A program made the translations under genes and the position numbers. This document shows positions 40,481-63,569 of a stretch of 64,000 bases of DNA, piece by piece; position 1 is the stretch's first letter; each line of letters opens with the position of its first letter. The notes beneath the pieces are model-generated. The model searched no databases. It was not told the origin of the DNA and was given only the letters and a program-made list of their open reading frames with translations. Location: the NCBI GenBank assembly GCA_019096065.1, contig JAGUCH010000009.1, positions 4,598,001-4,662,000 on the forward strand, in the 5' to 3' direction. The stretch is from Paracyclopina nana (Eukaryota; Arthropoda; Copepoda; Cyclopoida; Cyclopettidae).

Positions 40481-40877
40481 TGAAAGTAAGCAAGGCTAGC
40501 TTGGGAGATCAAGCAAGACCTGGCTGACAAATTGCTCCCAATGATCTAGGTAGAGTCAAAGAAAAGACATATCATTCTTCCAGGTACTTCCAAGTACTAT
40601 GCTTTTTGTATTAGACGATACGTTTTAAAGCACCAAGTGCGATTCGTTCTGGTAGCTCCAGTCACGATCCGTAGTAGTACCAGGTACTGGCACCCAATTC
40701 GAAAGTCGCATTGGCTTAACAAAAGATGGCTTCCTTTATATTTTGAGCTTGTTTGGGCCGTAGGTACAAAAGTTGTAACGATGTGCTTTTAAAAATGTGA
40801 TTTGTTGGTGAGCATCGCATGAAGAATATTGATACTTTATTGCTGATGTTTCTACTTTAGCTGACACAATTTAGCAT
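40481..40877. other. 3' flank of the synaptotagmin gene
   Basis: Downstream of the minus-strand synaptotagmin stop. No gene or RNA recognised; the 3' UTR of synaptotagmin should occupy part of it. Confidence 0.4.
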
Positions 40878-42794: not shown

Positions 42795-44258
42795 TGATAT
42801 CAGAGAAAAATGTCATCAAATAATGGCAAAAGTTGCATGAAAACTGATGCTCCTACTATTGGAAAAAGCCCTCAACTGCAGCTCTGATGAACCCCACCAG
42901 ACAAATATTTTCTTTTTTCAGAAATCTCCCAGTGTAATGAGCGGCAAAAGGAAAGCAGGAAATACAAATTTTGTGCAAGATAGCAATGCTCTCTGGAAGT
43001 GATCAATGCTAGAATTGGAGCTTGTGGGGATGAAAGTGACAGATGTTTTCTCACCTCCAAAAGATTCATTCCAGGCTATGTGGAAAGGCCTGCTTGGCTA
43101 GATAACAGTTGTTTTTTGAAGACATAATTCCGTGCAGAATGCCTTTTTAGAGGATTCATTACTTTATTAATGAATTTGCCTCCACTTTTTAATAATCAGA
43201 AACTCAATAGAAACCTATATTTCACCATAGAATGTGATTTGGTTTATTAAATCAGGAAAACCTCAATTTTGTCCAACTTTAGTACTTTGTAGGCATACAT
43301 CTGTGCATGAACTGAATTCAAAGTTGCATCTGATTTTTGAATACATTGAATAAAATCAATTGATGTCTGAGAATGACCATTTCGCAAAAAAAACCCAGGA
43401 AAATGTGATATGTCGCCACATTTGTGGAATGAGGTTTTGTGGGGTGTTAGGGGTGAAAAGTTCCGCTGAATAATAGGAATTGTGTCAACATTTTGTTTTA
43501 TTTCTCCATTTTCACTTGAAGTTGTAGTAGTAATAGAAGTTGTGATAGTTGTAGTAGTATTTCACATGCTTTCACGTAGAAGTGTATAAGTAATTTTCTT
43601 TGTAGGATCTACGGTTTGCTATCGGCAGCAAAAGAAATAATATTATTTTTTAAAGTATATTTGTCATGTGGGGGTATAATTTTTCGATTGGTATATTATA
43701 GTAGAGAGCACAGAGAGGGGGGAAATGCAACAAAATCGTGGAAGGCAGTAGTCAGTTTTTGTATGCAAAAAGAAAACATTTTGTGGCAGTTTTAGTAAGA
43801 GACTCTGAGATTTGAAAGGAGGGTGAACAAGTGAGGGAAAAAGGCTGCTGGTAACTAAACAAAATTCATATATTAATCCCCATCATTTGTTTTCTTATCA
43901 TAGACTAGCAATTTTTTTGTTTTTTGTCTTTCAGCTTGCTCATCAAATGCTAATGCCATTTCATTGCAAAAATACCACATCATAGGCTTTTTGTTCCTCG
44001 TTTAAAAATATTCTTTTTTTCTTCTTCAAATAATGAGCAATTTCTCCAGAAAAACACTTTCGAACACAATCTTTACTTTTTATATGTACAATTTTTAGGA
44101 GAGATAGGGAGAGAGAAGATGGATGAATTTATCAGCGCAGTAATTTTGGCAAAAAATTGTCTATAGCTTTCTCCATGTGCAGATGGGCAGCATATATGTA
44201 TATATTAAGAAACGGTGAAACACTTTTCCTTCGATTTTTTCTCTGGGTGTGAGTGTGT
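42795..44258. other. between synaptotagmin 5' end and E74 3' end
   Basis: The synaptotagmin promoter and the E74 3' UTR should lie here. A run of GTAGTAGTA-type triplets occurs near 43523-43560. No further gene seen. Confidence 0.4.
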
Positions 44259-47200
44259 TTAAGCGCCTGAACAGTCGACTTCAACTATTTCACCAATCTT
44301 GGGAACGTCCACAAATTGGTAAACCAATCGTTGGCCGTCAACTTTGGCCAAAATGCCCCTCTGATAATAGTACCTGCAAAATACAAGATATGAGGTCCAA
44401 AATACGAATTGCCATGTATATGATTTAGCATACCTTAATGCACGGCCCATGGTTTCATAGTTCATGTCTGGCTTGTTTTTGTGCAATCCCCAAAGTCTGG
44501 AGACAGCCTTGGAATCGACCAGCTTGAAGATGCCTTTCTCTCGGTTTGTCCACTTTATGTAGCGAGGACAGGAATCTTTGTCTTGGAGCAACTTCAGCAA
44601 AAACTCCCAAAGGTAAGTGGTGGTGCCCTCTCGCGACTTCCTCTTCATGGGAATGCCATCTGGGCCAATCTTCGGCTTGCGAGCCTTCTTTTTCAGCTGC
44701 TTCAACGAGGCCTAGAAAGAGAGGGAAACATGACCTTCGAGGACAATCTTGTTAACAATATCATCGCTTTTTCCTTCAAAAGTTGAGCGCCAGTTTCGTG
44801 AACTGAACACAAAGTTGAAGGATGACAATCGAGTCTCATTATGAAGCATGCACATTTGCTCCGGATTCTCTGCCATAAAATTGTTCCTTGCAACAAGAGC
44901 AGAAATGTCGTACTGCAATGATGCTTACCTGATGAAATGATCCGAATGACGGATAGGACTGGCCTCCATACATGTCAGCCTCAGCCGAGCCAGGGGAGGT
45001 TAGGCGGGACCCTGAGGCCTGAGGGGGCGGCGGCGGGGGTGGCAATGACAAGTGTGCTGCGGCTGCGGCTGCGGCTGCGGAATTTGCTGCGGCCAATAGC
45101 GGTGAAGAGGAAAACAAAGTGTGGAGGCTGGCTGCCGGTGAGGACGAGCTTCCGGTCACGTGATCTGGAGGGCTTGGTGTGGTGAAACTTCCGCTTGAAG
45201 GCCCTGTGTGTCCCCACAGTGTTTGGAGGTGATCTGCAACTGCAAATATAATTTCATTCTTTTGTGCTTGCTCTAAAAGACGAGATGGCCTTGAAGCCTC
45301 AACATACTACGTACAAAATAGCTGTACTTTTTTAATGGAGCATTTGTCGTTGTCTCTACGCGCTAGTTGCTTGTACAGCTCCACTTCTTTTGTTCCTCCA
45401 GTGTAGTAAACGTGCCCAAATTAAAATTCCCAGTTTTGCTCAATGAGACAGATTTCTTGAATAGCATAATTGTGCTATATGCTTGGATGCTTGCGTACAA
45501 CATGGAACAGGATGTGAAAGACGACACTTCCCGCATGATTATAACGCGCGGATGATGACTATAGTAGTACTCCACTTTTAGCAGCAATTTCTTGGGGTTC
45601 AAGGCCAACAAAGTCAATGACCAAAATGATGGGGGAGCATGAAGAAAACGGTTAAAAGCTACCGGTCAGTACTTGTCACCAGGGACAAATGCGATGTTCA
45701 TCTACAATCGCCAAACGAACATTTCAGCTCAGTTTCACGACATTTCTGCTTTTGTCATCCGATACAATTTTATGGCAAAGTATCTCGAACAAATGTGCAT
45801 GCTTGAAAATGAGACTCGACTGTCCTCCTTCAACTTTGTGTTCAGTTCACGAAACTGGTGCTAAACGAAAAAATAGTCGCAAGAGCAGATGAACGCGGCT
45901 TCAATCCAACTTCCCATCCCTGGATGTGATCAAAGAATGCAAGGAACGGCTGCTGGCAAAGCAAGTGACCCATGTTGGTCAGTTAAACCAAGAAGAAGTT
46001 GAGGTGGAATACAAAGGAAGACAAAGAAGCTCCATTCAAATCTGTTGCTGCCTTCCTAGCTGTGACGTCACCTAACTTGATGTTGCTTTGCTGCAAGCTA
46101 TAAACGTGTATCACTACTTGATGGCCTTGAACTCAAACCAGTGCATAGGCATGGACCGATATTCTGCGATTATCGCATATAGTCCAATTTCTCTACCGAT
46201 TCTTCGGAGCTTCAGTTAACTTGATGCAAACAAAAATTTGCTCATGAAGCAATATCGGTCGACTGCTATTTAAGCCACTACTGCCTACACACAAAACCAA
46301 TTGCGCGTTCGTTTTTTACAGTGCTGCATGGCATGAGCAACAGGTAGAAGAATCATGATGGCATGAACACTCCCTAATTCCCGCGAAGACGAATAATAAT
46401 CTTCCTTGCTGTACACAATTCTCCCATCTTTGTTGCGAGTTGAAAGAAGTCGTCATACCTGAAGTCCTGGGGAAGTGGGACTGGTGCTGCTGCTGTCTCT
46501 GACCATCGTAGAAGTGGGAAAATAGCCCAAGTCGGCTGCTACTTCCCTGGGACGGATGATTGAGGTGACTAGGGCTAGACAATTCATGATGGCGACCTAG
46601 CGATGAAAAATGGTTAGAAATATGCTCCAACGTAGGTAACTTGTTTACGACTCACCCATGGCATGTCGGTGGCGATTTAGCCTGTTTTCGTCATCCGAAT
46701 TGTGCGAAGAGGATGACGGGTCAACATCTGAGACCCCGGAGTCCGCAGGGCTGGGGGGTAATGAACCTACGACAAATACAGCACTATTAGCATACGTTCA
46801 TCTGCTCCGGCGAAAAAGCATCGTTCGGGTTCAGTTTAGCGAGCTGAAGCACAAGTTGGAGGATGACAATCGGGTCTCATCTCCAAGCAGGTACATTTGT
46901 AAAAGATACCCTGCCAAAAAGTTGTATCGCGCGACAAAAGCTCGAATGTCGTCAAATTACCGTTGGGGTGATGACGGCTGCTTGGATGTGGCTGAGTGGT
47001 GAATGCTTGCGTTCGAATGGAGCTGATGGCAGCAGGGTGCGGGGCGTGGCCTCCCCCTGACGAAATGGGCACTGGCAATTGGTATCCCATGTCATAACTG
47101 GGGTCCACATTCCAACGGGCAACTTGCTTTCCATTTTCATGGCGGATGGCTGGATCAACAATATCAACTGAAATGCAACACATAGAGGAATTATATGGTG

Positions 47201-50200
47201 AAAGTCGCATGGCCACGTGATATTTGTCTCACGTAAACCCCCCCAAAAAAATTTGAAAGATTATTGGCAGGCTGGAGGGACATAACTTCCAAGGATCGAG
47301 GGCATCTCGAATCCAATATTTGATGCTGTATCACCAAATGATAAGCTGTTTCATCGTTCCAAATGCACATGCTAAAGCCTTGACCTTATTGTGGCACACA
47401 AAAGGCTTCTTTTTGCAGAGTAGTGATGATATCCTTATAGTATAATTAGAGTATCTAAATGCCCCCCTGTCATTCCACTGCATGAGTCTCGATTCTGCAG
47501 GTCCTGGCATTCACAGAGGAAGGCTAATACATAAATGCACAGCGTATGTGGACTGTGTGCATGTAGGAAAAGAAGGCCAACTCCTAATAAAGGCTGTCGA
47601 AGGGGAAAGTCCTTGGTGTTGGTGGTGAACCTGGCAAATTGGGTCACTAGGTCGAAAATGCTACGTACACACACACACTAAGCAGCAGCAAACCATCATC
47701 GCAGAAAATGCATTGCAAAAGCCACATCACATGACCTCCGAAGATAAATGCTCAGGATTAGAAAGCATGCAAGCTGGTTATTACAGAATTGGGTCAAGCC
47801 TGCAGAAACTCAGTATCGTCTCAGTCGATGGCAGGCTGTTGACTTTTGTCGCAAGATACAATTTTTTGATCGAGGTTATGTGCTCAAATGTACGAGCTTG
47901 GCATTGAGACTCGATTGTCGTGAGCTAACTTTGCTTTCAGTTCGCCAAACTGAAATTGAAGAAGATACAGATTTTTTGGTCAAAGTAGTTGTACGTAGCG
48001 TTTGTCTATCGAAATGTAATAATGCCCTTTGCAAAATATTGACTTAAGGGCAGCAGTATATGTGACATGAATGCACCGTAGAAAGGAGAAGGCTGTGCGA
48101 AAAGCCATGCGGCCTATTTCACCACAACAAATTGGCCTTATATCAGGAAGAGTTGTCCTAGATTCTGGACATTGAACTAGGCAAAGTGGAACAACAGAAA
48201 CCATGGCCTTATTTTTCTAGGCCTTCTGCCACTGCACTGCTAGGCTTTTCCAGCCACTTCACCATTCCAGTGAAAAGGAAAGGCCTGGAAGCTAAAAAGG
48301 TGCGGCCTCGAAACCATGCACAGTGTGGCGAAGTGACAGGAAAAAACTACCGTTCCTTTCAGCCTTGCAACCTAGGTAGTGGTGAACTGCTACGTAATAC
48401 TTTTTTTCCTAGTTTTTCCTGGGCCCAGAGTGACACATCAAAAGAAAGCCTCGCAGACCAAACATGGAAAATGCAACCGAGTCGTCGCACTTTCGTCTTC
48501 GTCGCCAATGCACGGCCTTGAGCCAAATAAAGGCCTCTCAACTTGGACTGGAAAAAATGCTTTCACTCTCTATACTATTATGCCATGCAGACTTCCTCAA
48601 AAGGGCCCCTCTATAGTAGCATAGAAATAGGATATGACCTCATTTTTTCGAGCCTTGCACACTTGCTCTACGCTTCAAGCCAAGTAGGGCACACATTACA
48701 TTTTCATGATTTTCGAGGGAAAAAGAACTGGAAAAAGGAGGAAAAGGCATGTGTCGTCAGTCAAGGTCTTTTTCGGCCTTGTGCAAAACTTGCAAAAGCA
48801 GCAGCAGCATTCAAGAATCGCCGTCTCGTCTGATGGCCTTGAAGGAAAAGGCCTGTCTTGGCTCCTTTTTGTGGCCTTGCAGCAGCCTAGAACCAGGCAC
48901 CAGGCCAGCTTTGCTAACTTTCCAGCCAAAATGTAAGAAGGCCCACTACTAACTCGTAGGCCTGGAAAAGGAGCCAAATTCAAAGGAGAATGTACTACAA
49001 AAAAATGTATTCCAATGATACTTAAGTTTTTGACGTAAGATACTACAATTTGTATCGGAGTATTCCATTCATATCGACAGTCTTGCTAATGAGACTCGGT
49101 TGTCTTCAGCCAACTTTGCTTTCAGTCGCCAAGACTGAAATATCAAAGCTCGCAGGAAATAGTTGCTCTCTCGATATCGATAGCATGTGATAATTGGAAA
49201 GCTATCAGGGCAAAGTATGCGAAAATTGCATTCCTTCAGAGCCAAGTATTATAGCTGGCTGAAAAAAGTGCATCATCATTCTCGCTGCTGCTGCTATTTG
49301 AGGAAAAGGGAACAACATTGCATGCACCCGGGTTGCTTTCTCCTTGCGACGAAATGAGAACATCTGGGAACACCCACGTAGCATTTGGTGCTTTTGGCTT
49401 GCTTTCTACTCCTTCAAGGTCGCGATGTTGCCGGAAGTGAATTCATGCACCAGCACAGCTAAGCTGACTCGAATGTCTGGAAAGAAAGCTTTCTTCTTCT
49501 CTCCTTTTTTGCACTTGCAATGCGAAGAAGGCCTTGCCAGCTGCATGTGCTTTCTAGACATATTTCTCTTTTTATCAGAGGAATTGCAATCAGATGTCCT
49601 AGTCATGCATAACTTTTTGCTAGCCCCTTTCCTTAATCTGTCATATTGCTATTCAAATGCAGAGTATTCTATATTTTGTGGTGGTGGGGACTTTTTTTGT
49701 TTCTCCCACTTTTTTGTGCTCTCCTGCTATGCTCTACATGTTGATTTGCGAAGATCTAAATTGGATTTTGTATCCAAATCCCACGAGAGTTCATAGTCGA
49801 CGTGAGTCATAAAATGAAGAAGAAAAGAAGGAGGAAGAAATCCTTCCGCTGATTCATCGCTGCTTACAAGATATTGCACAATATCATGGTCTTCAATATC
49901 ACAGAGGGTGTAAAAATATGCAACAAAATAATGGGGAAATCCTGTGCAGCAATAAGCCGTACTGATGCACTTTTTTCATTTGTCATTTTTGTGCTTTCGT
50001 GGCAGTTGTCCCCCATGTGCAGATACTATAACGTATCGTCTCCCCAGACTTTCCACAATGTAAAGAGGGTTGGGGTGCTCCTCTTATGTACGATTACTCA
50101 CACCATACGTGTTTGGATGCTTTCTCTAACGATCCAAGATCGACTGTTGAATTGATGGCAACACTGGCTAGGTCATTTCATCCCATATGAGCTTTCTCTC

Positions 50201-53147
50201 TACCTCCAGATGTTGTTGCGATGAAGAAAAACCAAAATTACTCCGCAGACGACATTTTGTGACTCCTTCAACGCTCATATTCAGTTTTGAGCACTGAAAC
50301 CAAAGTTGTCAGAGGGCGAGCGAGACTCATTAGCAAGGCCTATCATTTGATAATGTGGGTGCGCCAAAAAATTGTAACACACAGCATCAACTTTAAAAAC
50401 GCCGACAACTACAATGTATTTGATGTAAGAGCCAGCTTTATAAGTTTGCACTATATGCTATATAGCTATAGCAGCAAGCATGCATGTAAAAGGTGGGCCA
50501 AGGTTATGCATCTCTCAGCGTGTATGCGTATACTGTGATGATCCCATAGAGAGCTAAGCATTGCGGATGCATCTAGCGTGAGAGAATTATGTCCGTCCGC
50601 CATTCTAGCCAATGCATAACTATTTTCAGTGCTTGTAATAATATCGCATAACATTCATTTGAAAGAGTTGGCGACATTGGCTTAGTCTTTCGCAAGTTTT
50701 GCATAGTCACGCTATTTAAATAGCTCATAACATAAAACGTATTTAAATAGCAGCTATTTAAATACATCCAGAGGCTATTTAAATACATTTTATGCTATGA
50801 GCTATTTAAATAGCGTGACTATGCAAAACTTGCGAAAGATTAAGCCATTATTCCCCTTTTTGTCGTTTAGTACAGTTTTTTGGCACCGTCACATGCTCAA
50901 ATGTGCAAGCCTGAAAATGAGACTCAATCGCCCATTTTCAACTTTGAAATCAGTGCTCAAAGCTGAAATTGAACAGCAAAGGAGAGCATCGCTTATCGTT
51001 GATTTTTTGGGCTAAACTGCTTGAATTCATGGCAAAAAAGGACATGCTGGATGTCATGGATCCAGGTAAAAGTATTGCCAACAGGTTTCAGGTTTTTACT
51101 ACAAGGAAGTGAATTTCCCATTTGACATAGCTGGCGCGCGCGCGCTAACGTACATGCTTGCCTGTAGAGCCTGCGAGTTGGCGTGAAGAAATTTGAAATT
51201 TCAAGTTCATGCCGTGACTGGGATCGCACATCTGTTAACTGCAATATCCTCGTTGGAATCGACTCTATAACGGGACGCGACGACGATGACGATTTCCTCG
51301 ACTCCCTTGCTAACTTCCACATATTGCGTATGTATTGTAATGCTACTTGATGAGAGAGGATTTAGCCACAAGGGACCACCAGCAGCAGCAGCAGCAAGAT
51401 TGCTCGAAATTGCAAAGGAAAGGAAAAAGGGCGTGGTACTGGCTACAAGAGTCTTTCTGTACGTTCACCCATAATATCCTGATTATTACTTGGGTGAGTG
51501 CAGAAATTGGCATGGAATCGCATCATTGTCCGAGAAAGAAGGCCAAGCCATACTTCCTTTCATTTGCAAGTAGCAGCCTTTCGGCATTAGCAGTGCAGGC
51601 AAGGAATGCACAATAATATCGGTGGCCTTCGCCAAACTAGGCCACATGAATATGAGGGATCAGCAAAAATGGCCTTATTACTTTTTTCTCCTATATGCAA
51701 TACTGTTATAATTATAAGGAGATTTTTAGGTAAAGATGTGCTTGTTTGACAAAGAAACTTTCTCAAAGTACGGACATATGAGATTGGTTTTTTTTCAATT
51801 TGCTAACTAAAAGATTTTCCTTGTTTTCGTTTTCCAGCTTGGAGCGATTCATATAATGAATTAAAGGAAACGGACTAGCTAGGCAAAGAGATATGTAGGT
51901 CACCCAGTTGGTTGCAATGGCTTTCTTTTGATCCAATACTTGCAAGTAAGGCACCATACCCAGGGGAAGCATATTGAGGTCAACATGTGCATAACAAGTG
52001 CATCGCGAGAGAGGAGAAAAAGCTCCTCCGCGGGAAAAAGCTGCATTTCAAGACACTTGCCAACAAGGTCAGCGCATTTCACTTCTTTCGGAAATGATTT
52101 TTTCCCTTGCTATTAGCTAGGATAGCTTAAATAGTAGCTGCAGTTTCGGTGTAGCGGTCTACCTAAACGCCCAGACAATGTGACCCCATTCCGCGCTTCG
52201 ATGAAGATTTGAGTCGGAAAAACATATTTACGCGCGACGAGAAAAATCATGGGAAAACGACCTGAAATGCTGGGTGTCCTTTCAAGAGCAAAAACAGATT
52301 CTCAGCGGGTCGCCATCACCATTGAGCTTAAAAACGTGGATTTTTACGAATTCATCATCTGATCCGTGTCAATTTGCGTTAGTTTTGAGCACTGGCCAAA
52401 AACTCCGCAAGGATGCATTGCGTAGCCTTCAAAAAAGTACGCAAACGATGGAATCGCGCCATTTATAGTTTGCATAATATGTGCCACCCACGCGAAAACG
52501 ACCTATGGGAAACTGGCTCAATTTCTCAAGAGTGGCGCGCGCATTTGACCGGCGCGCGCTCACTTTGTTTATCAACAGTTTGGCATTATTGCAGTTGATC
52601 CCGGGTTCAAAATGGTCAAGAAACATCATCGCGTTCGCAATAACAACAACAGCATTTGAGACGCAAGGTGAGTGAAAGTGAACTGAACTTGACCCCCATC
52701 ATTTTGCCAACAACCATAACAAAACTATTTTGGGACACGTGAGAAAATCGCGCAAAACAGGAAACTAGGCTACTGCCCGATTCTTCTTGCAAAAAACTCA
52801 CCGTTCTCCTTGTGCAAATATTTGGTGAGGAATCGCTTGCGCGCGGGGCCTCCGATGAGGCCGGCCGCGGCCGGGGGGAATCCCCCGGGGAATCCCCTGA
52901 GCAGCGAGGCCGCGGAGAGGACGGACCTCGCCCTGCGCTCGAACTCGGCGGACTCTTCGGAGCCCCCGGAGCTCGACCTCGGGCGGTGGTGGGCGAGGCC
53001 GAGGCCGAGGTCGCACGGCCTCGGGCTGAGCTGGTCCTCGGTATCGTCGCTGCTGTGGTAGCTCGGACTCACTTTGGGACGCGAGAGGTCCAAGGGCTGC
53101 ATTTGGCAGTCCTCGTCGGTCGTCTCAACTGAGCTGGCGGCGGCCAT
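44259..53147 (-). CDS. E74: E74/ELF-type ETS transcription factor, short 5' form
   Basis: Seven exons, 499 residues: 53147-52802, 47167-46961, 46766-46656, 46596-46459, 45233-44929, 44711-44434 and 44373-44259; all phases match. Residues 1-115 include [10 protein letters not shown], a PLDLS motif of the kind that binds the CtBP corepressor, then low-complexity acidic and Gly/Pro-rich sequence. The middle has [19 protein letters not shown] and an alanine and proline run (from GCTGCG repeats near 45060). The C-terminal ETS domain ([56 protein letters not shown]) matches the ELF/E74 subfamily closely. ETS factors bind GGAA sites in the nucleus; insect E74 is an ecdysone early gene. The symbol is by similarity. 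Intron 1 is 5.6 kb and carries many repeat copies. Confidence 0.93.
44788..44912 (+). repeat. hairpin repeat family, copy 1
   Basis: CAGTTTCGTGAACTG hairpin, then GACAATCGAGTCTCATT and ATAAAATTGTTCC. It lies in an E74 intron about 17 bases inside the donor of the exon ending at 44929. See findings for the family description. Confidence 0.8.
45722..45864 (-). repeat. hairpin repeat family, copy 2
   Basis: Inverse orientation; the closest relative of copy 1 (same CAGTTTCGTGAACTG hairpin, and GCATGCACATTTG in the middle). It ends near the sequence GTGCTAAACG. Confidence 0.8.
46829..46957 (+). repeat. hairpin repeat family, copy 3
   Basis: CAGTTTAGCGAGCTG hairpin, GACAATCGGGTCTCAT core and AAGTTGTATCGCGCGACAA end. 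It runs right up to the E74 exon ending at 46961, so the donor of that exon abuts the repeat. Confidence 0.75.
47843..47965 (-). repeat. hairpin repeat family, copy 4
   Basis: Inverse orientation with CAGTTTGGCGAACTG hairpin, GACAATCGAGTCTCA core and AAAATTGTATCTTGCGACA end. It is one of the most complete copies. Confidence 0.8.
49036..49150 (-). repeat. hairpin repeat family, copy 5
   Basis: Inverse orientation. The hairpin reads CAGTCTTGGCGACTG, a compensated stem (GTC/GAC instead of GTT/AAC). The core is GACAACCGAGTCTCATT. Confidence 0.7.
50277..50392 (+). repeat. hairpin repeat family, copy 6
   Basis: CAGTTTTGAGCACTG hairpin, diverged core GAGCGAGACTCATTAGC and AAAAATTGTAACACAC end. Confidence 0.6.
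50679..50846. mobile_element. 168-bp hairpin MITE with ATTTAAATA steps
   Basis: Starts GGCTTAGTCTTTCGCAAG and ends CTTGCGAAAGATTAAGCC, arms of about 65 bases with one mismatch visible (GTC versus ATT). The loop has repeated TATTTAAATA, as in the element at 29.5 kb. It adjoins a hairpin-repeat copy at 50868. Confidence 0.88.
50868..50972 (-). repeat. hairpin repeat family, copy 7
   Basis: Inverse orientation, weaker hairpin (CAGCTTTGAGCACTG), core GATTGAGTCTCATTTTC, middle TGCACATTTGAGCATGTG. Confidence 0.65.
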
Positions 53148-53380
53148 TTTTGCAACTGCTGACTGAATAATCTATCCACTTTGCAAAAAAGCTAGCGCGG
53201 AATTCCGCAAGAAAGGGCTTCCGCGGTAGTCGACTTTCAATGTCCTACTGCTTGAGCTTGCACTTCTCCTCATCATCGAGCGGCTCGCGTTCGCTTTAGC
53301 GGCCGCACACAACCGTGCGCGCAACGCGCAACTTGCGCGCGCCACCTCAAGCGCGGCCGCAAATTCATGCCACAATAACC
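52802..53380. promoter_or_regulatory. CpG-rich start region of E74 short form
   Basis: A sharp rise in GC and CpG over the first coding exon and the 200 bases upstream, including two GCGGCCGC-type sites near 53300 and 53352, against an AT-rich background. This fits an unmethylated promoter. The exact start is not visible; no TATA box seen. Confidence 0.5.
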
Positions 53381-54078
53381 TTACGTTGATCGTGACGCGA
53401 AATAGGTGACTCTTTCCGTTTTGCCTTTTGCTCAAATCAGCGACTGCAATGGCCTTTTTAGGCAAAGCTTCAAGCTTAACATCGGCCTAAAATCCATATC
53501 CAGCGAAACTACGGTGAAATGCCTTTTTTCGCCTACAAATGAGACGCAATTGGTTTCGCGTTGTGACATCAAAAGGTTCAGGAAAAAGGACTCGTATCCT
53601 CAAGATTTTCCTTACTTTTAGCTGACCGCGAAACATTGCTAATGAGGACGCCTCAAACTGCTTTTTGACACTTCCGACGGAAATATGTCAAAAGTCGACA
53701 TTTTCAAGTGGCTTTTCACAGAAGAAGTCACCAAAGTTTCTTTTTTTTCTCGCTAGAAGCCTTTCAAGCCCTTTTTGCTAATGAGCCGAGCAATGTTGAC
53801 AACTGAAGGAGACTGGATAACGCGATAACTTCAATTTTTGCAAGCAGTTCTCAGTCGAATTTCGTCTCCCTTAAACGGGCAAAAATGGGCATTTGCTTCG
53901 GTGGTTGTTGCGACATCTGAGCTTTCTTTTTGCGTTGCGTCATGCGATGACTCCCTTATAGATTTTTAAGGAGGCCAGCCACGATTTTGGCCTTTTAAGG
54001 CCATTACGCAAGAATTTATGGAATTATCGGCGAGATGGCCCAATGATGCAATGGATAAAAGATAAAATGAGGACTTAC
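53381..54078. other. upstream of E74 short-form promoter
   Basis: No coding exon seen. Several AGGCC words and short T runs. It is an intron for the longer E74 form. Confidence 0.35.
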
Positions 54079-54141
54079 GAGAGTCGATAACGTTTTTGAT
54101 GCATTCATCGTCCAACCTCGGCAAGTCGCCAGCCTCGTAAC
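54079..54141 (-). CDS. E74: E74 alternative upstream exon
   Basis: A 63-base exon between a CTTTTAAG acceptor and a GTAAGT donor coding GYEAGDLPRLDDECIKNVID plus one more Ser. It enters and leaves in phase 1, so it joins in frame to both the exon at 58705-58923 (upstream) and the common E74 exon at 47167, bypassing the short-form first exon. It would give the N-terminus of a longer isoform. Confidence 0.65.
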
Positions 54142-54651
54142 CTTAAAAGCAAAAATAGGACATCTGTATAAATGTGGCTGCACACCGGCAAAAAATGGCT
54201 TTTTTGCTTCATTTGCATGATGCATTCAAATGTGAAGGGACTCAATGGGATATGAAAAAAGTCAACTTGGGATGTGCGTTCAGTGGTTGAGTTCGCGCCC
54301 TTTTTTTCAGGGAAGCAGCAACAATATAAATAATGAACGGCCGTTTCTAATTCGGCTGGATCCCGTGGGAAGAGCGGAAATTAGCGTTCTCCATGATGAT
54401 CCAGGCAGCAACGATCTGTTGCTTCCATTTCAGCCTAGGTTTACTATTTGACTAGCAGCCCTCAAAGCATAGAGATGCGCAAACGCTTCCTATACTGAAC
54501 GAGCTGTTTTGAAAAACCTGTCAAAATTGCTAGGATTGAATTATCTTTTGGTGCATCGATAAATTGTGAAGAATCAAATGGTATGTTTATTAGCCAGGCT
54601 GCGTTCAGTAGCTCATTATGGCCGAATAGTAAAAAACAGTCGCATTGTACA

Positions 54652-54695
54652 TTTTTACTTACGCCGGTCTAACGTTAGACCGGCGTAAGTAAAAA
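54652..54695. repeat. 44-bp perfect palindrome
   Basis: Two 22-base arms, exact inverse copies with no spacer, centred on TCTAACGTTAGA; the arms contain ACTTACGCCGG. A further short inverted pair, TCGCA and TGCGA, lies outside at 54639 and about 54698. It lies in an E74 intron. Confidence 0.9.
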
Positions 54696-55465
54696 ATTGC
54701 GATATTAGTCAACATAAACTGGCTTGAATTTCGAACAATACGAAGCAAGTGAACGGGGCCAAAAAATGCGGCAGATTTCCCAAAATTATTCAGTCTTGAT
54801 CAATCAACTTAAAAATTCGCTATCCGGAAAAGGGATATTTTAGCCATGGTGGTGCGCATCTCTATTAAGTGGAGATCTCTAGTTACACGAGCACCACCTG
54901 ACTGTGACTGCTTGACTTTGAACAGGGCGGTGGAAAAGCCGTTGCAAGGAAGTGTGTCATGGCTGGCATGACAGTCTACATAATGGCAAGATATTTCCCA
55001 TCCAAAAGGAAGGATATGGCCACTAATGAGGGATCCTCTGTGGCAGAGGAGTTTTACCCCGCAAACAAACGGTTATGCTAGCTGCCGTAACAGGAGCAAA
55101 ATCTGATAAAACGCAGTTTGGCGGCTGTTATACAAGAAGGAAGACTCATCGTCCCAAAATTCGTCCTTGAACTGAAACGTTGAACTCAAAAGTCAACTGC
55201 TTTGGCCAGAGCAGCAACAGCTTTTGGAAACAACCTGCTCTGCCGTGCTATAAACCGACATTTTTCTTCTTCGACTCTCCCATACTACCATCATTTTAAG
55301 CCAGCTTCTGCATGCACAAGGGTGTTCGGTTCCAATGTATAAAAGTTGGCTTTGGAATGTCGGTGTATGTGGCATTTCCTTCTATCCATGATGCACCGTT
55401 CATCTACTTCGCCGCACTTAAAACGAGATCATTTTAGTTTTTGGCGTTGGATGCAATTAATTGGC

Positions 55466-55560
55466 AAAGAAGCTTTTTCAAACCAATCGAGTTCGAAATG
55501 AAACTCGATTGTGATATTTACACTTTGCTTTCAGTTTACGAAACTGAAACGGGACTAAAG
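55466..55560 (-). repeat. hairpin repeat family, copy 8
   Basis: Inverse orientation, CAGTTTCGTAAACTG hairpin, AAGCAAAG, core CACAATCGAGTTTCATTTC; the far end is lost. Confidence 0.7.
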
Positions 55561-56103
55561 CGGACTCAGTTTCCGTACGTCAAGATTTTTCGGTATAAAT
55601 ATAAAGCGATGCATTACGGGCAAAAAAGATGGGCCTTTTTGGCAGAGAAGCTGCTATAGGTGTATATTATTAAAAGTGAACTTTTGACGCGCGCAATCAC
55701 CATTTTCCCACCATGGAGTTGAGCGTTTGCCCAATTCCAGGAAGATGAGAATTTAGCTGGAGGCAAAGAAAAACACAACCTCATGGTATATAATATACGA
55801 GGTTTTCCGCTATCAAGCTGCATAAAGAAGTTGTATATTGCAAAAAGTTGCGAAAGCGTGCCGGATCGTGGAGGCGACAAATTGGAGTCGAGGAGCAGAT
55901 TTGGCAATGAAAATTCAGTCCTGTGTGAAAACCAGTGACGAAACGCGGATGACGTGAGATTGTGAAGTTCAATGCTAATGTCACGTTCACCGTTTCCTAC
56001 AATATAACCTGGGAATGCGAACGACGTCATTTGGTACACAAATTATAACTGCGTTCAAGTAGAAGAAATTATATCAACGAAAGGCAACTGTGTCACGCGT
56101 TGC

Positions 56104-56226
56104 TCCACTTCAGTTTTGCAAACTGAAAGCAAACTGCGAACATGACAATCGAGTCTCATTTTCAAGTACGTTCATTTGAGCGCGATGCTTCGCCAAAAAA
56201 TTGTATCCTACGCCAAAAAAATAAAA
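56104..56226 (+). repeat. hairpin repeat family, copy 9
   Basis: CAGTTTTGCAAACTG, a perfect 6-bp stem, then AAGCAAACTGCG, the core GACAATCGAGTCTCATTTTC, GTTCATTTGAGCG and AAAAAATTGTATCCTACGCC. The most consensus-like copy. Confidence 0.85.
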
Positions 56227-57911
56227 TTAGGCATTTTTCAGTTTTGGCCGAAATTGACGTTATCCCATTTTGTAATTACTTAACAATTGATGAGCAGCTG
56301 AACACAGCCTCATTCGAGTCATATGGGGGCTATTACATAATAAGCCGATGTGACTCCACAAAAGAAGAATATACTAGTTGTAGCACAGCAAAAAAATCTC
56401 CTCTCACACCCTCATAAGTTACGAGGTTAGCGGTGAGACCTGCAAAGTCGAACGTTTCAGGGGGAGAATGCAAACTAGTTCATGGTCACTCTCCTGTATT
56501 TTGGCAACAACTACATGATGGGGGAAAGGGTAGCAGAAATAAAGCAGCAGTTTCACTTTTTAGCTCTGCTGCTGCAAAATCAGGAAGAAAACGAGCAAGG
56601 CCCAGTGTGTAGTGTATCTATATGTATAAGGGCTTTGTGATGCATTCAAACTCGAATTTCACAAGAGTTTGGCAACCTACGTGCAATCCTGGCTGCAGCA
56701 GGTTACATTCGAGGAAATCACCATATAGAAAACCAGCCTGGTTTCCGATTCATTTTCTCAGTATTGAAAAGGGATCAGTGGCATGACGTGGGTTTGCCTT
56801 CACTATTGGCCATTTTTTGGGTCTGTTGGAAATGTGCGTCATTTTTCTCAATGCAATGCATCTGGGAGTGTCAAAAGGTTAGGCAATAACCTTGACGCGA
56901 TCCAGCTAGACGACATGACTTCTCTCAATGGAGCCAAATTTCCTTCCGGGGGCCTCCTCTTCCACACTACATAGATTGCCTAACACCAAGCCTCAGCTGG
57001 CTCCAAATCAGGCAGGAATTATTCAATCTTTTTTCAACAGTCCCCCCCCTAAATTTGCAAATTATCTCATCTTCAATTTCCATTACTTGTATTTTCTAAA
57101 AATGGCATTTTCTCTCGAATTCGTCACAATATCGAGGCTAGATGTAAGACCACTATTATTGTGCAATTTGGGTAATTTTGGAAATTGAAGCACTCAATTC
57201 GGCTAGATATAGATGAGCAGCACATAAGACATTTTTTCCGACTGGTATTGCAGACGTTTTCAAGGGCATGCTGCTACCAGTGCTGTGGTGGTATTTTTAC
57301 ATTTGCAAATTGAAGCCGCAATGTCGTTGTGTGTATGGCTATTTTTGCTGCAGTATGTTTACATCCTCTCTCCAAGTTCCTCCTCAGATCATCATCAGTT
57401 TTTTCGCCGAAACAATACAAATAATGTTGTTTGCTCAAAGAGTAGTAGTAGTAGTGAAAAGTGCTCGTTTGTTTTGGGCCAGGAATTCCGGTCGTCAAAT
57501 TACGGCAAAAAGATTAATCATCCGCAATGCTATGACCACATCGCATTGATTCTGGTTTTCCAGGTCAAGTTGCAACACAGTTTTTAGCAATGGAAGTATT
57601 TCCTAATTTTCACATTTGTAATTTGTCAAAAGTTGACTTCCTCCCAAGTAGAGGAGGAAAAAGGACCATCGGAAGCCATTTTCGTTATTTTGGGTGTGTC
57701 CTTCCTTTAAGGATATATAGTGTAGCATCATTTTTTTAACGGCCATCATCTTCCGCTTAGCATGCAGCACAGCTCAAAATTGTAATTTCTCCAGCTAATT
57801 CTTTTCAAGGCTTAGGAAAGTAGCATTTGTTATTTGACTATATTTTGCACTTGGTCACTACAGGCACGGTGAGGCCAAGCACGGCCAAAGTAAATATCGA
57901 TGCTGGGAAAC

Positions 57912-58030
57912 GTTTCCATTTCAGCTCAGTTTTGTCGACTGAAAGCCAATTGGGTTTCATTTCAGACTTCGTTGAATTGGAAATGTTACACTGCCATAAA
58001 ATTGTATCTTACGACAAAAACTAAAAATAA
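57912..58030 (+). repeat. hairpin repeat family, copy 10
   Basis: CAGTTTTGTCGACTG hairpin and intact ATAAAATTGTATCTTACGAC end, with a shortened, diverged middle. Confidence 0.7.
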
Positions 58031-58052
58031 CAGCAAAATATTGTGAGGTAAT

Positions 58053-58263
58053 AGGCCGTTCTCATATTGCCGGAAAAAGCTAAGCTAAGGTAAAATTAGC
58101 TAAGCTAAGGTAAATATTATGCAACGAAAACCGGTTATTTCGCTCAACATTCACAAAAAGCAGCTACTTTGCTTGAAATGTTGAGCGTTTGCTTAGCTAT
58201 TTTTACCTTAGCTTAGCTATTTTCACCTTAGCTTAGCTTTTTCCGGCAATATGAGAACGGCCT
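58053..58263. mobile_element. 211-bp inverted-repeat MITE with TAAGCTAAGG repeats
   Basis: Ends AGGCCGTTCTCATATTGCC and its inverse GGCAATATGAGAACGGCCT, flanked by TA(AT). The arms carry two copies each of AGCTAAGCTAAGGTAA on the left and their inverses on the right, then TGTTGAGCG further in. Non-coding. Confidence 0.88.
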
Positions 58264-58344
58264 AATGAAAGTTTGAAGAAGTAGTAGGTGAGCGTAAAAA
58301 TACGCATTTATATCCAGATCTTATAATATTAACTATGTCGTCTG

Positions 58345-58385
58345 AAGCCTTCATTCAGCTTTATGAACTGAAAGCTAAGCAGGAA
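58345..58385 (+). repeat. hairpin repeat family, partial copy 11
   Basis: Only the hairpin end remains: TTCAGCTTTATGAACTGAAA followed by GCTAAG. Confidence 0.45.
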
Positions 58386-58704
58386 AAAACTAAGTGTTTT
58401 AATCAAAGAACGCAATTGTGTACGATAATGAAGTTCAATGAAGTAGATGAACGATGCATTAATCCTCTGGAAGGAAATGCCATGATCATGACATTCCAAT
58501 TTTGGGGAGTTTAGCGAACTGCTGCTCCCCAGTGTGCGTTAAGCACAAAACAGGGTAGGGATGCTGAAAGAATGTGCAAAGTGGAGGGAGGAGGCAGAAT
58601 CAGGACAAGGACTTTCACTTATGCTATTACTTCTGGGGTGAGGGGGGGAAAATCAGGACACTTTTGCTTTCAAGAGCAAGTATCCGCGTTTTTTTTCCAC
58701 TCAC

Positions 58705-58923
58705 CTTCAAGCTTGATATTTTCGCTCTTGATTGGCGGTGGCGGTGACTTTTTGGCTGAGGGCAACTTTTTCGGGACATCCAAATGCGAAGGGATGTTGT
58801 TGTTGTTATGATTGAGAAGCTGGTTTTGTTTTGCAAATTCTTGCTTCACGACCACTGGAGGCAACACAGTCTTGTTGGTGATCACTTTCTTTGATGTGGA
58901 CGGAATGGAAGAAGAGGACTTTC
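58705..58923 (-). CDS. E74: E74 alternative upstream exon, long form
   Basis: A 219-base exon between TTTTTTGCAG and a GTGAGT donor, phase 1 in and out. It codes for KSSSSIPSTSKKVITNKTVL, then a VVVKQEF motif, an Asn run (NHNNNNIPS) and a Lys/Pro-rich end with IKSENIKLE. VKQE and IKSE fit the SUMO-attachment pattern (hydrophobic-K-x-E). It joins in phase to the exon at 54141. The start exon lies upstream and was not found, possibly beyond the window. Assignment to E74 rests on strand, order and phase. Confidence 0.6.
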
Positions 58924-59793
58924 CTGCAAAAAATAATCAAATGTTTTTAATTAAAAACGAAAAGCAGAGAGGGGCAACTCGCAAAAATAAAAGCATCATC
59001 AATCATACGATAAATATTTTAACTGTGAAACAACTGCATTTTCCCGCCTTAAAAAACACACTTTCGCTTTTGCTTTTCGAGTGTGTGTGTGTGTGAGTGA
59101 CACTATTTTGCAAAATAATTGCAAAAAATGTCATAATTTACTTCAGTACAGCAATGCTAGGAAAATAATGCAAAAACTAGCATGAAAATTGCAACTTTAC
59201 TCAATTGTTACAATTCCTTAATGCTATCAAAGGAAACAAAGCATAAAGGCTTATATAAACCTTAATTTTACACAAAGGTTATGTTGCATACTGCATGGCT
59301 AAGATAGGGAAAACGCGCGCTTGTTTCCGAGCTAAGAGAGAGGTTGCGTGAGTTGCTATCGTTTTTTCCGCTACTTTATCACAGCACTCAAAAGTACGGA
59401 ATTCCTACTTTTTGCCGCTAATAGCCCCATTATGATAGTAATTTCGCCGGGCCATAAAACCACGTTTTATATTTCGACTTGAAATGAAAAATTCCTCAGT
59501 ATTAATTATTTTTGGCGAGGAAATGAAATTTTGCAAAAAAACCTTAAGAGTTTTCCGGATTCCTGTAAATCATGAAGTATTATGAATATTTCATGACAAT
59601 ACTTTCAGATTAGCGTAAATATTCAACCGAAAGTCATTCATTTAAAGGGTATAAGGTTATTGGTGGACTGTGAACTACCTTGAGGTTACTTAAGTTACTC
59701 AGCAGTTTTTGCTCCTCGGAAAACGGAACGTAATTTTCCCTGACAATGATGATTGCGGTGCTGTCAATTGGCTGAGTGAAAATTGGGGGAAAA
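58924..59793. other. between E74 long-form exon and sulfotransferase
   Basis: No exon supported. A (TG)n run near 59083-59096 and AT-rich sequence. It is also within the upstream intron of E74 if that gene continues. Confidence 0.35.
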
Positions 59794-59967
59794 ATGGGAC
59801 GAAAAAGTGAGCTGAGCTCACGGTGTCATCCCTACATTTATCTTGTGCCCAAGAAAAAAAGCCGAGAAGGAATAGTAGCTTTAATGAGCATTGCAAGCCT
59901 CGCTTTGACATTTATCTACATAGTCAACGTTGAAGAAGATTCAGGCAAAATAACAACATCACTCTGA
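59794..59967 (+). CDS. candidate signal-anchor exon for the sulfotransferase
   Basis: An ATG frame coding MGRKSELSSRCHPYIYLVPK, a basic KKSREG, then IVALMSIASLALTFIYIVN, the pattern of a type II Golgi signal anchor. It lies just upstream of the sulfotransferase core, which lacks such an anchor. The join is not secure: the nearest GT donors (AAC|GTTGAA) are weak, though phase 0 joining to an acceptor at 60209 would be in frame. Confidence 0.4.
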   Translation: MGRKSELSSRCHPYIYLVPKKKSREGIVALMSIASLALTFIYIVNVEEDSGKITTSL

Positions 59968-60057
59968 TCAATGAACAAAAAATGATAAAATCGATTAAAA
60001 AAACTTGAGCTTCCGGATTTAAATTTAGTAAATCTTTAGCAAATCTTTCATTTAATT

Positions 60058-60142
60058 CACCATTGAAAACTGAAAACGAAATGGAATGATGCAGACTCGT
60101 TGATTTTGGCCTTAAAAATCTACATCACGACAAAAATGTCGT
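60058..60142 (+). repeat. hairpin repeat family, partial copy 12
   Basis: TTGAAAACTGAAAACGAAA, GCAGACTCGTTGATTT and TACATCACGACAAAAATG resemble the family but the first hairpin arm is lost. Confidence 0.4.
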
Positions 60143-60197
60143 CCAAACTTCAAAGCAGCATACGTTTTAGCTACAAAAAGCCAGAACAAAATTATGA

Positions 60198-61287
60198 ATG
60201 AATAGACAGCCAGCCAGAGTTGCTGATTGCGTTTCTAGCCGGTATACAGTAATTTTTCAAGACAAGTTCATTAATCGGAGTGGCTTTCCAGTAGCAACAA
60301 CAACAACTGGCAAACTTTTGCAAGACTTTTATGACAAGGAAGACTTTGCCAGTGAATTGAAGTATTGTTCGTCTGAGCAGAGCAAGCGAAGACAAATTGC
60401 TCAGCAAGGATGCGAAACTCTGAGCAGAAGCAATTACAGCTTTCTGCTGCAGAAAATTCCCGACATCCGTAGTGTTTGGGTGAACCGGCCTCGTCAAATG
60501 TCAATGTGCACTCCACACAAGGTGGGCAGTCAAACGTGGAGGTATTTCTTCCAACAAATGGACCAAAGAGATCAAGGCATCCTTGAAGGAGAAGTCAACT
60601 GGCACGAAGACTACCAATTATCTGGCTGGCCAGAAGATGCCCAATACCACAAAGGAGTGCAAGTGAGGCATCCTCTGGAGAGGCTCTTGTCCTCCTACAG
60701 GTTCATTTTTGAAAGGGACGTCATGAAGTCCTCCATTGCTCCACTTAACGAATACATCTTCAAGACGTATCCAGATACAGCCAATACATACAACTCGTCT
60801 GAATTCGACCCCTTCCAATTCGTGCCGACTTTCAGGCAGTTTTTGCAGTTTGTCGTGCACAGTGGGGAGGATTTTGGCCAAGGTGACTATCCTGTGGTGA
60901 GCCATTGGCTGCCCTACTACTTGTCCTGCAACCCTTGTCATCCAGGTGAGTTGTGGCAGGAACGGATCTGATTCCAATACTGTGTATCGAGTTTTTTAAT
61001 CCCCAGATTTCTTCCCTGACTCAATCATTCATATGGAGACGATTGAGCGAGACACCATTTGCTACTTGGATGCCAGCCGTAAAATCCACCTTGAAGACTT
61101 GGCCAACTTGAGGCATATCAACATTTCTCCCATGGGACATTCCTCGTCAAAGCTGATCCAAGCCGAGTATTTTGGCAAACTTGATCATCGTGACGAGTCT
61201 CTTTTGAAGCAAGTCCAAGACAAATATTGGCCAGACTTTCTACTCTATGGCTATCAATTGGATGCCTACTTGCAAATGATCAACTGA
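60198..61287 (+). CDS. carbohydrate sulfotransferase, HNK-1/CHST family
   Basis: Two exons, 60198-60945 and 61007-61287, phase 1 join, 342 residues as written from the first ATG. The HNK-1ST/CHST8-14 (Sulfotransfer_2) family transfers sulfate from PAPS to Golgi sugar chains. The 5'-phosphosulfate-binding loop is seen as TPHKVGSQTWRYFF, and the 3'-phosphate site as VRHPLERLLSSYR. Family-typical segments continue: PFQFVPTFRQFLQFV, HWLPYYLSCNPCHPDFF and METIERD. The C-terminus ends KYWPDFLLYGYQLDAYL as in relatives. There is no membrane anchor in this frame, so a first exon is expected (see 59794); translation from 60198 may be an artefact, since a stop codon lies directly before that ATG. It lies opposite to and possibly within the E74 gene. 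Confidence 0.85.
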
Positions 61288-61721
61288 ATTAAATTACCAC
61301 TCATCATTATTGAGCATCGGAATCAAGCCTTGCTCCGCATTAAAATAAGTTGTAGCAGTATCTTTGGCCTTTGTGTGGAAAAACTAGGTTATTTGATCAA
61401 TCCTCTACTACACATCGAGGCTGTTTTCGTGCGCTCTCTCTCTCTCTTTTCATAGTATAGAAGTTATAGCTTGCTCAGCTAGCAAAGCCGGCGAAGAACG
61501 CACGTCTTCTTCTGTCTTTAGAGAGCTCCAGTATTATTAAATGTCAGTCGTTATTTGGAGGTCTTCATTGATGAACTACTTGTGTCCATTCTCAAGCAGA
61601 CGTCGTCGTCGTCGTGGTGGTGCCGAAAGATCCTCTTCATCGGTGTCATGGTAGGTGGTCAAATATTGATTAATGTTCATCGTTTTATCTCATTCCAGAG
61701 AATGTACCCATTTTAGTTTTT

Positions 61722-61840
61722 GACGTTATGTAGAACATTTTTTTGTCGAAGCAAAATATTCAAATTAACGGACTTGGCAATGAGACTCGATTGTCATCTT
61801 TCAATCTTGTTTTCAGTTTGCAAGACTGAAACTGAGCATT
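61722..61840 (-). repeat. hairpin repeat family, copy 13
   Basis: Inverse orientation, CAGTCTTGCAAACTG hairpin, AACAAGATTGAAAGAT, core GACAATCGAGTCTCATTGCC, and CATAACGTCAAAAACTAAAA end. Confidence 0.8.
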
Positions 61841-62287
61841 AATTGCAAACGTTGGGTTACGTCAAGATTTTTTTTTCTCGACTTTGTAGCAAGGCTGTAC
61901 CAAGTATGATTAACCAGGGAATACAGCCATTTCATGCGGTACAAATAATTGTTTCTTTCCACCTCTCATGTGCTATTTTAGTATTCATACCATGTGGTAA
62001 TTATGCACATGCAGATCTTAGATTACGAAGCCTTTCATTCACTGAGCATTTATGTTTATTATTCTCTTGGTGTTTATTTCAGGAAAGAGATCATCTTGTA
62101 TTCGTTTGGCCAATACAACTCCTAGGGGAAAGAAGTGGGCCAATTGAAAAGTAATTGCATGTCTTCCACCAAACAACTGGTCTACGAAAATGAAGCCAAT
62201 AAAAACTAGACGTTATATGGAGGCAGCACATCATCGCTATAAACATGCCAACTAAGGTGAAAAAATATTGGACGCAACCCAACGTTT

Positions 62288-62416
62288 GCCATCTTTGCTG
62301 AAATTCAGCACAGCAAACTGAAAACAAAGTTGCAAGATGAAAATCAATGCTCATTAACGGGCTCGTTGATTTGAACAAGTAACTTTCACATAAAATTGTG
62401 GAATACGACAAAAACC
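62288..62416 (+). repeat. hairpin repeat family, copy 14
   Basis: CAGCACAGCAAACTG at the hairpin position, AAAACAAAGTTGCAAGATGA, a diverged core and ATAAAATTGTGGAATACGAC end. Confidence 0.65.
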
Positions 62417-62624
62417 CAAAAATCTTCAAAGCATAAAGGTCAATGCTATTTGACGTAAATGAACACTTTGCTCTAGCTAATTGACACCTAATACAGTAAA
62501 GTAACTTATGCCCTGTACACGTTTGCACTAGCTGCGATTTGAGCAGCTTTCAACTCGAATTAGCTTAAAAAGGCAAACAAAATTAGGCCAGCCTTGTTGC
62601 CTCATTACAAATGGCATTCTGTTG

Positions 62625-63140
62625 ATGCAGTTGAATATATACACTCGTGACTTGAAAACCGAATTTCCAGAGATGATTGGAAGCCATTCCAGCCTCGGAG
62701 GTCGCGATGAGAGTCGCATCTACTTCATTAGCAGCGAAAATACGTTGAGTTCCAGCCTCGAGCTGCAGCCAACAGCCTCGCAAAGCTTGGAGATGATGAC
62801 CTCGTCCTCGTCAAAGAGTCCAGCTCGTAAAGTGCCAACGATTTCAAGCCAGGAGGCCGAGTACGACCTCCGAGGCTGCCAACTGCCAGGTGCTATCAAC
62901 GAAGGCTGCTGTTACGTTAACGAAGGTGGGCCAGTGATCATCAAACAGGAGTACACAGGAGCAGCCTCCATAGCTCCTGAGGTCGGAGTGGCCTCCAGTG
63001 ACAGTGAGTCGAGAACTAGTGTCTTCAGTGACAGACTGCCATGCGGCCTCACCAGATTCCACTTTTCGTTGTGCTTTGGCATGGTTGGATTTGTCGTTTT
63101 CTGGCTTGGACTCCTGCTCAGAATATACCTCCCACACTGA
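62625..63140 (+). CDS. tail-anchored protein of unknown family
   Basis: A frame of 171 residues from MQLNIYTRDLKTEFPEMIGS, Ser-rich and acidic (TSSSSKSPARK, SSDSESRTS), with a PVIIKQEY segment of SUMO-site type, ending in one helix (CFGMVGFVVFWLGLLLRIYL) and PH then stop. A C-terminal helix with almost nothing behind it is the mark of a tail-anchored membrane protein (ER or mitochondrial outer membrane). A TTGATGCAG sits at the start, so it may instead be the last exon of a larger gene with acceptor after 62630. I do not recognise the family. Confidence 0.6.
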   Translation: MQLNIYTRDLKTEFPEMIGSHSSLGGRDESRIYFISSENTLSSSLELQPTASQSLEMMTSSSSKSPARKVPTISSQEAEYDLRGCQLPGAINEGCCYVNEGGPVIIKQEYTGAASIAPEVGVASSDSESRTSVFSDRLPCGLTRFHFSLCFGMVGFVVFWLGLLLRIYLPH

Positions 63141-63204
63141 ATACCTTTTTTTGGTAACAAATAAAACGATGAAAATGTATACGCAAGCTTGGCCTTTGGA
63201 CTTG

Positions 63205-63303
63205 AACTTCAGTTCTGAGAACTGAAAGCTAGCTTCAGGTGACAACTGAGCATCATTGGCAAGTTCATGCATGATTTGAACATACGAATTGTATTCTTTT
63301 AGA
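63205..63303 (+). repeat. hairpin repeat family, copy 15
   Basis: CAGTTCTGAGAACTG, a perfect stem with a compensated pair (TTC/GAA), then AAGCTAGCTTCAGGTGACAA and CGAATTGTATTCTTTTAG. It lies just after the tail-anchored protein. Confidence 0.7.
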
Positions 63304-63569
63304 AGCAGATCTTCGTCAATACAAACACACTATGATATAATTTTTTGAACATCACACCAAGCACACATGACTAAGAAGATGGACTACTTTAAGCTGGGAA
63401 CTTTTTGTGCCTTACAAGTAGCATAGTGAATATATGTATTACTAACAAGAAACTTGAGTAGAACTTTAGCAGATCTGCGTGGAGGAAATCGTCAGACAGC
63501 AAATAGAAATGTGAAGGCCAGTTAGCTGCTTTTTGTGCACTTATCTGGCTTCAGAATCACTACATAGAG

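Follow-up and report, generated by a model that had tools for sequence, protein, structure and literature searches.

An old transposon-like repeat gathered in chromosome-arm islands of Paracyclopina nana, with an inner module that may have been co-opted as a DNA site

A short repeat built around a palindrome recurs about fifteen times in a 64,000-nucleotide stretch of the copepod Paracyclopina nana (the window; C9:4,598,001-4,662,000 of a 92-Mb, 10-contig assembly), where it lies in and around a gene that is E74-like by its ETS domain and is called E74 below. The genome has 80 matches of the cuticle family Chitin_bind_4, as befits an arthropod. An earlier reading of the letters alone (the sequence-only reading) regarded the repeat as a hairpin-ended family confined to this gene's neighbourhood, and the locus thus raises the question of what the repeat is and at what level, DNA or RNA, its conserved parts are kept. 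The answer that we tentatively favour, and to which we give a little less than even confidence, is that it is an ancient repeat resembling miniature inverted-repeat transposable elements (MITEs) and partly multiplied locally in chromosome-arm islands, and that its inner module was co-opted as a DNA-level protein-binding site whose palindrome arms would be kept by selection.

The repeat is gathered in islands on outer chromosome arms

A sequence-only profile (R1) was built from 12 copies in the window and run over the window with filters off. It returns 12 strong copies on both strands (E 7.6e-30 to 4.8e-21, scores that are inflated because these same 12 copies were the model's input), all within 44787-62420, and the same 12 are recovered by a model-free repeat search restricted to 44000-64000. 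Together with three partial copies these account for the roughly fifteen copies, in both orientations, that had been reported between 44.8 and 63.3 kb, and the order of blocks inside the element is also as reported. The first 44 kb had been described as free of copies; there is no strong copy there, but a marginal match lies at 17341-17409 (E 0.001), the sole match in the window under E 0.01 outside 44.8-63.3 kb. If copies are treated as independent and placed uniformly, the probability that 12/12 fall inside an 18.5-kb stretch is 3e-7.

Confinement to the E74 neighbourhood did not survive searches of the whole assembly. When up to 1 mismatch is allowed, the 17-base core gives 111 matches (reversed control 0), and the pattern TCAGT-N7-ACTGA-N4-AAA, with three choices of loop base, gives 146, 156 and 132 strand matches (434 in total) where reversed controls give 7, 2 and 45. 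Among these 434, 300 places were listed, which correspond to 271 distinct palindromes and are complete for contigs C1-C6. Forty matches (39 distinct palindromes) were then drawn at random from the 258 listed ones outside loci already sampled, and an R1 match is present in 39/40. As the palindrome pattern fits 38/80 known copies, a rough estimate of the total copy number is of the order of 800.

These copies are gathered in islands on outer chromosome arms, and E74 is one small, minor island among them. On C3, 93/94 sites lie within 9.504-10.147 Mb (643 kb), and on C7, among the matches listed, 1/112 lies in 1.95-5.3 Mb. Across C1-C6, 149/151 sites are no more than 2.2 Mb from a contig end, a zone that makes up 37% of the sequence; the C3 cluster alone contributes 93 of the 151, and with it removed the count is 56/58. 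The 2.2-Mb cutoff was picked after the islands had been seen, and at a 1.0-Mb cutoff there is no terminal enrichment (27/151 sites for a 17% share of the sequence of C1-C6), so that the islands are mostly 1-2.2 Mb from contig ends rather than terminal. Exact matches of the transposon-end motif TAATGCCCTGTTCATCTAC, used as a control, are found within 2.2 Mb of ends in 24/61 cases and within 1.0 Mb in 10/61, and the median nearest-neighbour distance is 1.8 kb for repeat sites versus 252 kb for this motif. An independent 14-base word from the 3' block of the repeat points to the same islands, with 16/22 matches in C3:9.69-10.04 Mb (reversed control 1). Other islands include what are, judged by eye, presumably introns of the genes for an AMP-kinase gamma subunit (L017) and an adenylate cyclase (L031).

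How the islands arose is partly indicated by the similarity of copies to each other. The top-scoring other match of the copy at 56.1 kb (i56p) is 78% identical over 104 bases (29 candidates scored), and that of a queried C3 copy is also 78% identical (best of 40 scored among 71 candidates). Among 79 copies mean identity is 0.75 for those less than 700 bp apart and falls to 0.63 when the separation is 20-200 kb and to 0.60 for copies on different chromosomes; tandem arrays of the repeat exist. Since identity rises with proximity, local multiplication over a long time explains the islands at least partly. The preferred landing zone that the sequence-only reading had suggested thus holds in spirit, as islands at the scale of the genome with E74 a minor one, but at least part of the pattern is explained by local multiplication.

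Anatomy of the repeat

When one C3 copy is compared with the remainder of the genome, the similarity in most cases starts near AAAATCTTGACG, some 40 bases 5' of the palindrome, and ends near TGTCGTCAA; the shared unit is therefore about 167 bp, and the length of about 115 bp first given to the element is too short. Within this unit is an inner module that begins with the palindrome TTCAGT-N7-ACTGAA and has AATCGAGTCTCATT, ATTTG and CAAAAAA at a constant distance after it. Column conservation was taken from 104 R1 matches, 101 of which have distinct coordinates, and it shows conserved blocks alternating with free spacers: column 6 is C in 92/92 and column 18 is C in 98%, while column 14, at the centre of the palindrome loop, is near random (A28 C22 G31 T17). 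The blocks reappear in copies chosen on other parts of the module. TCTCATT (at most 1 mismatch) is present at the expected offset in 16/40 of the random palindrome matches, compared with a control mean of 0.9 and maximum of 3 over 15 offsets; all 16 are free of any indel, and in 5 further matches TCTCATT lies on the opposite side. In the 19 of these matches chosen on the palindrome and CAAAAAA only, the majority base reaches 74-95% in columns 49-55 and 26-37% in spacer columns 57, 59-61 and 63. This layout, two half-sites a fixed distance apart and then other blocks at constant intervals, resembles the footprint that a dimeric protein acting with partners might leave.

Two other accounts of the module were considered and dropped. 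The core can be read by eye as an in-frame peptide, but to the eye the conserved columns have no three-base period, and the palindrome is conserved at the nucleotide level, and a coding origin was rejected. Bidirectional elements were suggested by 29 of the 271 listed palindromes, which matched on both strands; this was abandoned because the upstream side of the element often satisfies the pattern itself.

Two other occurrences of the core deserve mention. One copy, at L097:121-760 (C7:6784.1-6784.8 kb), appears by eye to have had its core multiplied into a 26-base minisatellite of about 20 units (TTGCTTAATGAGACATTCGAGTCTCA and variants). At L002:1501-1517 (C2:12.38 Mb) the exact 17-base core lies within a 602-codon open frame that is transposase-like by eye; the remainder of the repeat matches weakly there (E 0.009), possibly by chance.

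Conservation of the palindrome at the DNA level

The sequence-only reading had also proposed that the stem of the hairpin covaries, and that selection acts on a folded form. Neither proposal is borne out. Across 242 sites, Watson-Crick pairing at the three inner position pairs is seen in 103, 124 and 52 cases, where independence expects 106.8, 122.2 and 68.2 (permutation p 0.76, 0.39 and 0.99), and the outer pairs are near invariant, with pairing at expectation (75-76 copies). RNAalifold predicts 5 pairs at -2.85 kcal/mol for the 12 window copies, and 0/5 have a two-sided change. In the absence of covariation the palindrome is best seen as conserved as two DNA half-sites, at the level of DNA rather than RNA, and RNA structure was rejected as the basis of its conservation.

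The loop between the half-sites drew separate attention. Three copies in tandem at L088 (C7:1192.05-1192.9 kb) resemble one another in their flanks but differ in their 7-base palindrome loops, which hints at faster change of the loop; over 12 pairs, loop hypervariability is not significant (24/84 loop versus 199/960 flank differences, p 0.10).

Tests of constraint on individual copies

If the copies were merely old, their conserved columns should decay like the spacers, and this can be examined in local duplicates. With one pair per locus at 6 loci, the palindrome arms have 4/60 differences and the flanks 106/480 (Fisher p 0.004; p 0.02 when the expectation comes from a simulation that applies the search filter). 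Seven disjoint pairs give 4/70 and 135/560 (p 0.0002; simulated-filter p 0.005). None of the 6 loci was fetched by the palindrome pattern. This slow change of the arms between local duplicates supports selection on them. Conserved columns differ at 21/265 positions and variable columns at 44/232 in 8 disjoint pairs (p 0.0003, with copies ascertained by the model), and at 127/1006 and 265/904 in all pairs.

A number of observations weigh against the reading that we favour. Five of the 6 loci in the arms test were fetched by similarity to a palindrome-containing window copy and one (L007) by the core, and the test left out copies whose arms had changed at more than 2 positions. The core is tested most cleanly at loci selected by the palindrome alone and in columns that lie beyond it; there, 6 disjoint pairs have 15/135 differences in conserved versus 30/155 in variable columns (p 0.07), and all 14 pairs have 51/310 and 87/369. 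The array at L031 shows no constraint (60/304 conserved-column versus 62/283 variable-column differences, summed over pairs), many of the randomly drawn copies are strongly decayed, and in both queried copies short stretches of 38-130 bases are 80-97% identical to other copies. The conserved columns could, furthermore, have been shaped by constraint during past transposition. We conclude that the tests together favour constraint, surely not on every copy and short of proof, and that the inner DNA module is probably kept by selection.

Transposon ends and the case for an ordinary MITE

The repeat has traits of a MITE in being short, high in copy number, interspersed and present on both strands, and some copies have transposon-like ends. 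Sequences similar to TGTTCATCTAC, which is the inner portion of a transposon end, are found upstream of 10/73 copies (background 3.0%), and their reverse is found downstream of 16/73 (background 6.4%, wrong-strand control 6/73). Both ends are present in 5/73 copies, 201-283 bp apart; by eye, an identical target-site duplication is absent at the ends of all five, for which copy age could be responsible. Elsewhere in the genome the end motif TAATGCCCTGTTCATCTAC occurs in facing pairs with 3-bp TWA (TTA or TAA) duplications (four pairs on C1, by eye), a combination reminiscent of PIF/Harbinger. The view that the repeat is a short non-autonomous transposon is thus plausible, with copies interspersed and Harbinger-like ends beside some of them. 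A MITE origin of the family is likely, though short of proof.

Some of the ends may not belong to the repeat. In L006:1341-1480 (C3) a small Harbinger-ended element lies inside a repeat copy, between palindrome and core, with TTA on either side (by eye), which indicates that some Harbinger-like ends belong to later neighbours. The genome has 25 matches to the transposase domain DDE_Tnp_4, and 8/25 of these loci were read with about 1.5 kb per side; no locus has a facing pair in which each end has 1 mismatch or fewer. Facing end words with 1-2 mismatches are present at L039 and L043, as chance allows (0.88 such words expected per locus), and the 8 of 25 loci thus provide no clear candidate for an autonomous partner. 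Harbinger-like end words were also seen in the first 44 kb of the window, where the core family is all but absent (3797-7174, 25925-27066 and 40089-41959).

An ordinary ancient MITE, now dead and decaying, is almost as likely as the co-opted module. Its blocks would have been kept for the transposase while the family was mobile, its islands would come from local hopping and tandem duplication, and the host would have no use for it. The enrichment of Harbinger-like ends over background, the fall of identity with distance, the tandem arrays, the heavily decayed copies, the unconstrained L031 array and the non-significant clean core test are all as this account would have it. It is less comfortable with palindrome arms that change more slowly than their flanks after local duplication, and with an end motif scattered over chromosomes whereas the core family is in islands. 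It is also at odds with ends that are recognisable in a minority of copies while the inner blocks persist, although this comparison is tilted, the copies having been sought by their inner part. An even genomic spread with target duplications and no covariation beyond chance had been named beforehand as the mark of an ordinary MITE with a chance cluster at E74; covariation is indeed lacking, but neither even spread nor duplications were found.

On the reading that we favour, an old interspersed MITE-like family grew inside outer-arm islands, partly by local duplication, as the islands, the tandem arrays and the fall of similarity with distance show. Its inner module would be a stretch of DNA to which a dimeric protein and its partners bind, and the palindrome arms at least would be kept by selection, copy by copy, after insertion. 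The repeat would then be a cis-element that arrived with a transposon and was co-opted, in introns as well as in intergenic DNA, and it would resemble promoters derived from MITEs or sites of chromatin entry.

Less probable explanations

A more far-reaching proposal is that hundreds of copies, each of them selected, mark the outer-arm islands as entry or boundary sites of a lineage-specific chromatin or meiotic system; we regard this as unlikely.

A further proposal, which we consider distinctly improbable, is that each copy is the promoter of an individually transcribed short RNA, in the manner of nematode Piwi-interacting RNAs (piRNAs), with units restricted to domains, both intronic and intergenic, and a single motif for each unit. 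The islands of many short units, some of them intronic, do resemble two organisations of nematode piRNA loci described in PMC6436959. Upstream of 6/9 U2 genes, however, the element profile scores 5.7-12.6 where shuffled means are 7.9-9.3, with none more than 1.4 standard deviations above, and likeness to small nuclear RNA (snRNA) promoters was rejected, as nothing stands clearly above shuffles at these 6 of the 9 U2 loci found. No product region is visible, and the conserved unit is far longer than the nematode motif.

Least credible is a structured RNA, or another RNA-level element with a selected hairpin, as first suggested for this locus: the palindrome could fold, as in the RNAalifold structure above, but its pairs do not covary and the only match in an Rfam scan of the window is a transfer RNA (tRNA).

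Copies in the window

The copies and the ETS-domain exon are collected in Table 1. Copies on opposite strands bracket E74 exons (exons by eye), 44787-44905 with 45743-45862 and 46826-46946 with 47841-47959, and the first of these pairs is 85% complementary over 130 bases. Such an arrangement could permit pairing of introns within a transcript. Two near-perfect inverted repeats that are foldback-like, at 50678-50847 and 58052-58264 (arms of 74 and 66 bases, 96% and 95%), are seemingly unrelated to the repeat family. A perfect palindrome with 22-base arms and zero spacer lies at 54652-54695.

Table 1. Repeat copies and the ETS domain in the window (positions are those of the window)
Feature	Position	Strand	R1 score (bits)	E	Remarks
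ETS domain	44259-44711	-			in E74-like gene
Copy a44p	44787-44905	+	93.1	6e-28	beside ETS-domain exon of E74-like gene
Copy b45m	45743-45862	-	97.2		Harbinger-like ends at ~45.69 and ~45.89 kb
Copy c46p	46826-46946	+	91.0		
Copy d47m	47841-47959	-	89.6		
Copy e49m	49022-49141	-	82.4		bears the GTC/GAC stem singled out by the sequence-only reading
Copy f50p	50276-50396	+	84.7		
Copy g50m	50852-50972	-	86.4		
Copy h55m	55432-55551	-	86.2		
Copy i56p	56105-56225	+	99.2		top score in window
Copy j57p	57923-58026	+	71.0		internal deletion (alignment)
Palindrome-only remnant	58353-58394	+	12.6	0.008	
Decayed partial copy	60054-60135	+	14	0.003	
Copy k61m	61711-61834	-	90.5		
Copy l62p	62301-62420	+	82.7		
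Partial copy m63p	63205-63284	+	31.8	8e-9	bears the TTC/GAA stem, likewise singled out

Comparison with known systems

Literature searches, including searches with motif words, turned up no description of this repeat family, although one may exist elsewhere. If the copies are individually maintained, the family would be a natural case, in an arthropod, of transposons turned into regulatory or chromatin sites that are limited to parts of chromosomes. If they are not, the family still illustrates clearly how a repeat can stay in a few chromosome segments over the long term while another transposon-end motif is scattered in the same genome.

One group of comparable elements is the MITEs of the PIF/Harbinger type, which the repeat resembles in having TAATGCCCTGTTCATCTAC-related ends near a minority of copies. 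It differs from them in that the five two-ended copies have no identical duplication, in a distribution unlike that of the scattered end motif, and in that no transposase locus with clear facing ends is present among the 8 examined.

Three further systems share features of organisation or of presumed fate. Nematode piRNA loci are made up of numerous short units, which lie either within domains of megabase scale or inside introns, and their motif derives from snRNA promoters (PMC6436959); the arrangement in domains or introns is similar here, but there is no likeness to snRNA promoters at the six U2 genes examined. In Drosophila miranda the transposon ISX has distributed sites that bind a chromatin complex along a chromosome, and these sites are under selection (PMC4384637). 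ISX is a young element that functions in the dosage compensation of a newly formed X, whereas the present family is old and lies on several chromosomes. In Caenorhabditis the CERP2/CELE2 MITEs carry a motif pair bound by HIM-17, a transposase-related protein of the THAP class, and these MITEs are the source of about one third of germline-specific promoters (PMC9757741). That family belongs to another phylum and has other motifs, and the copies described here lie in outer-arm islands; what the two have in common is a MITE with an inner pair of motifs whose spacing is constrained.

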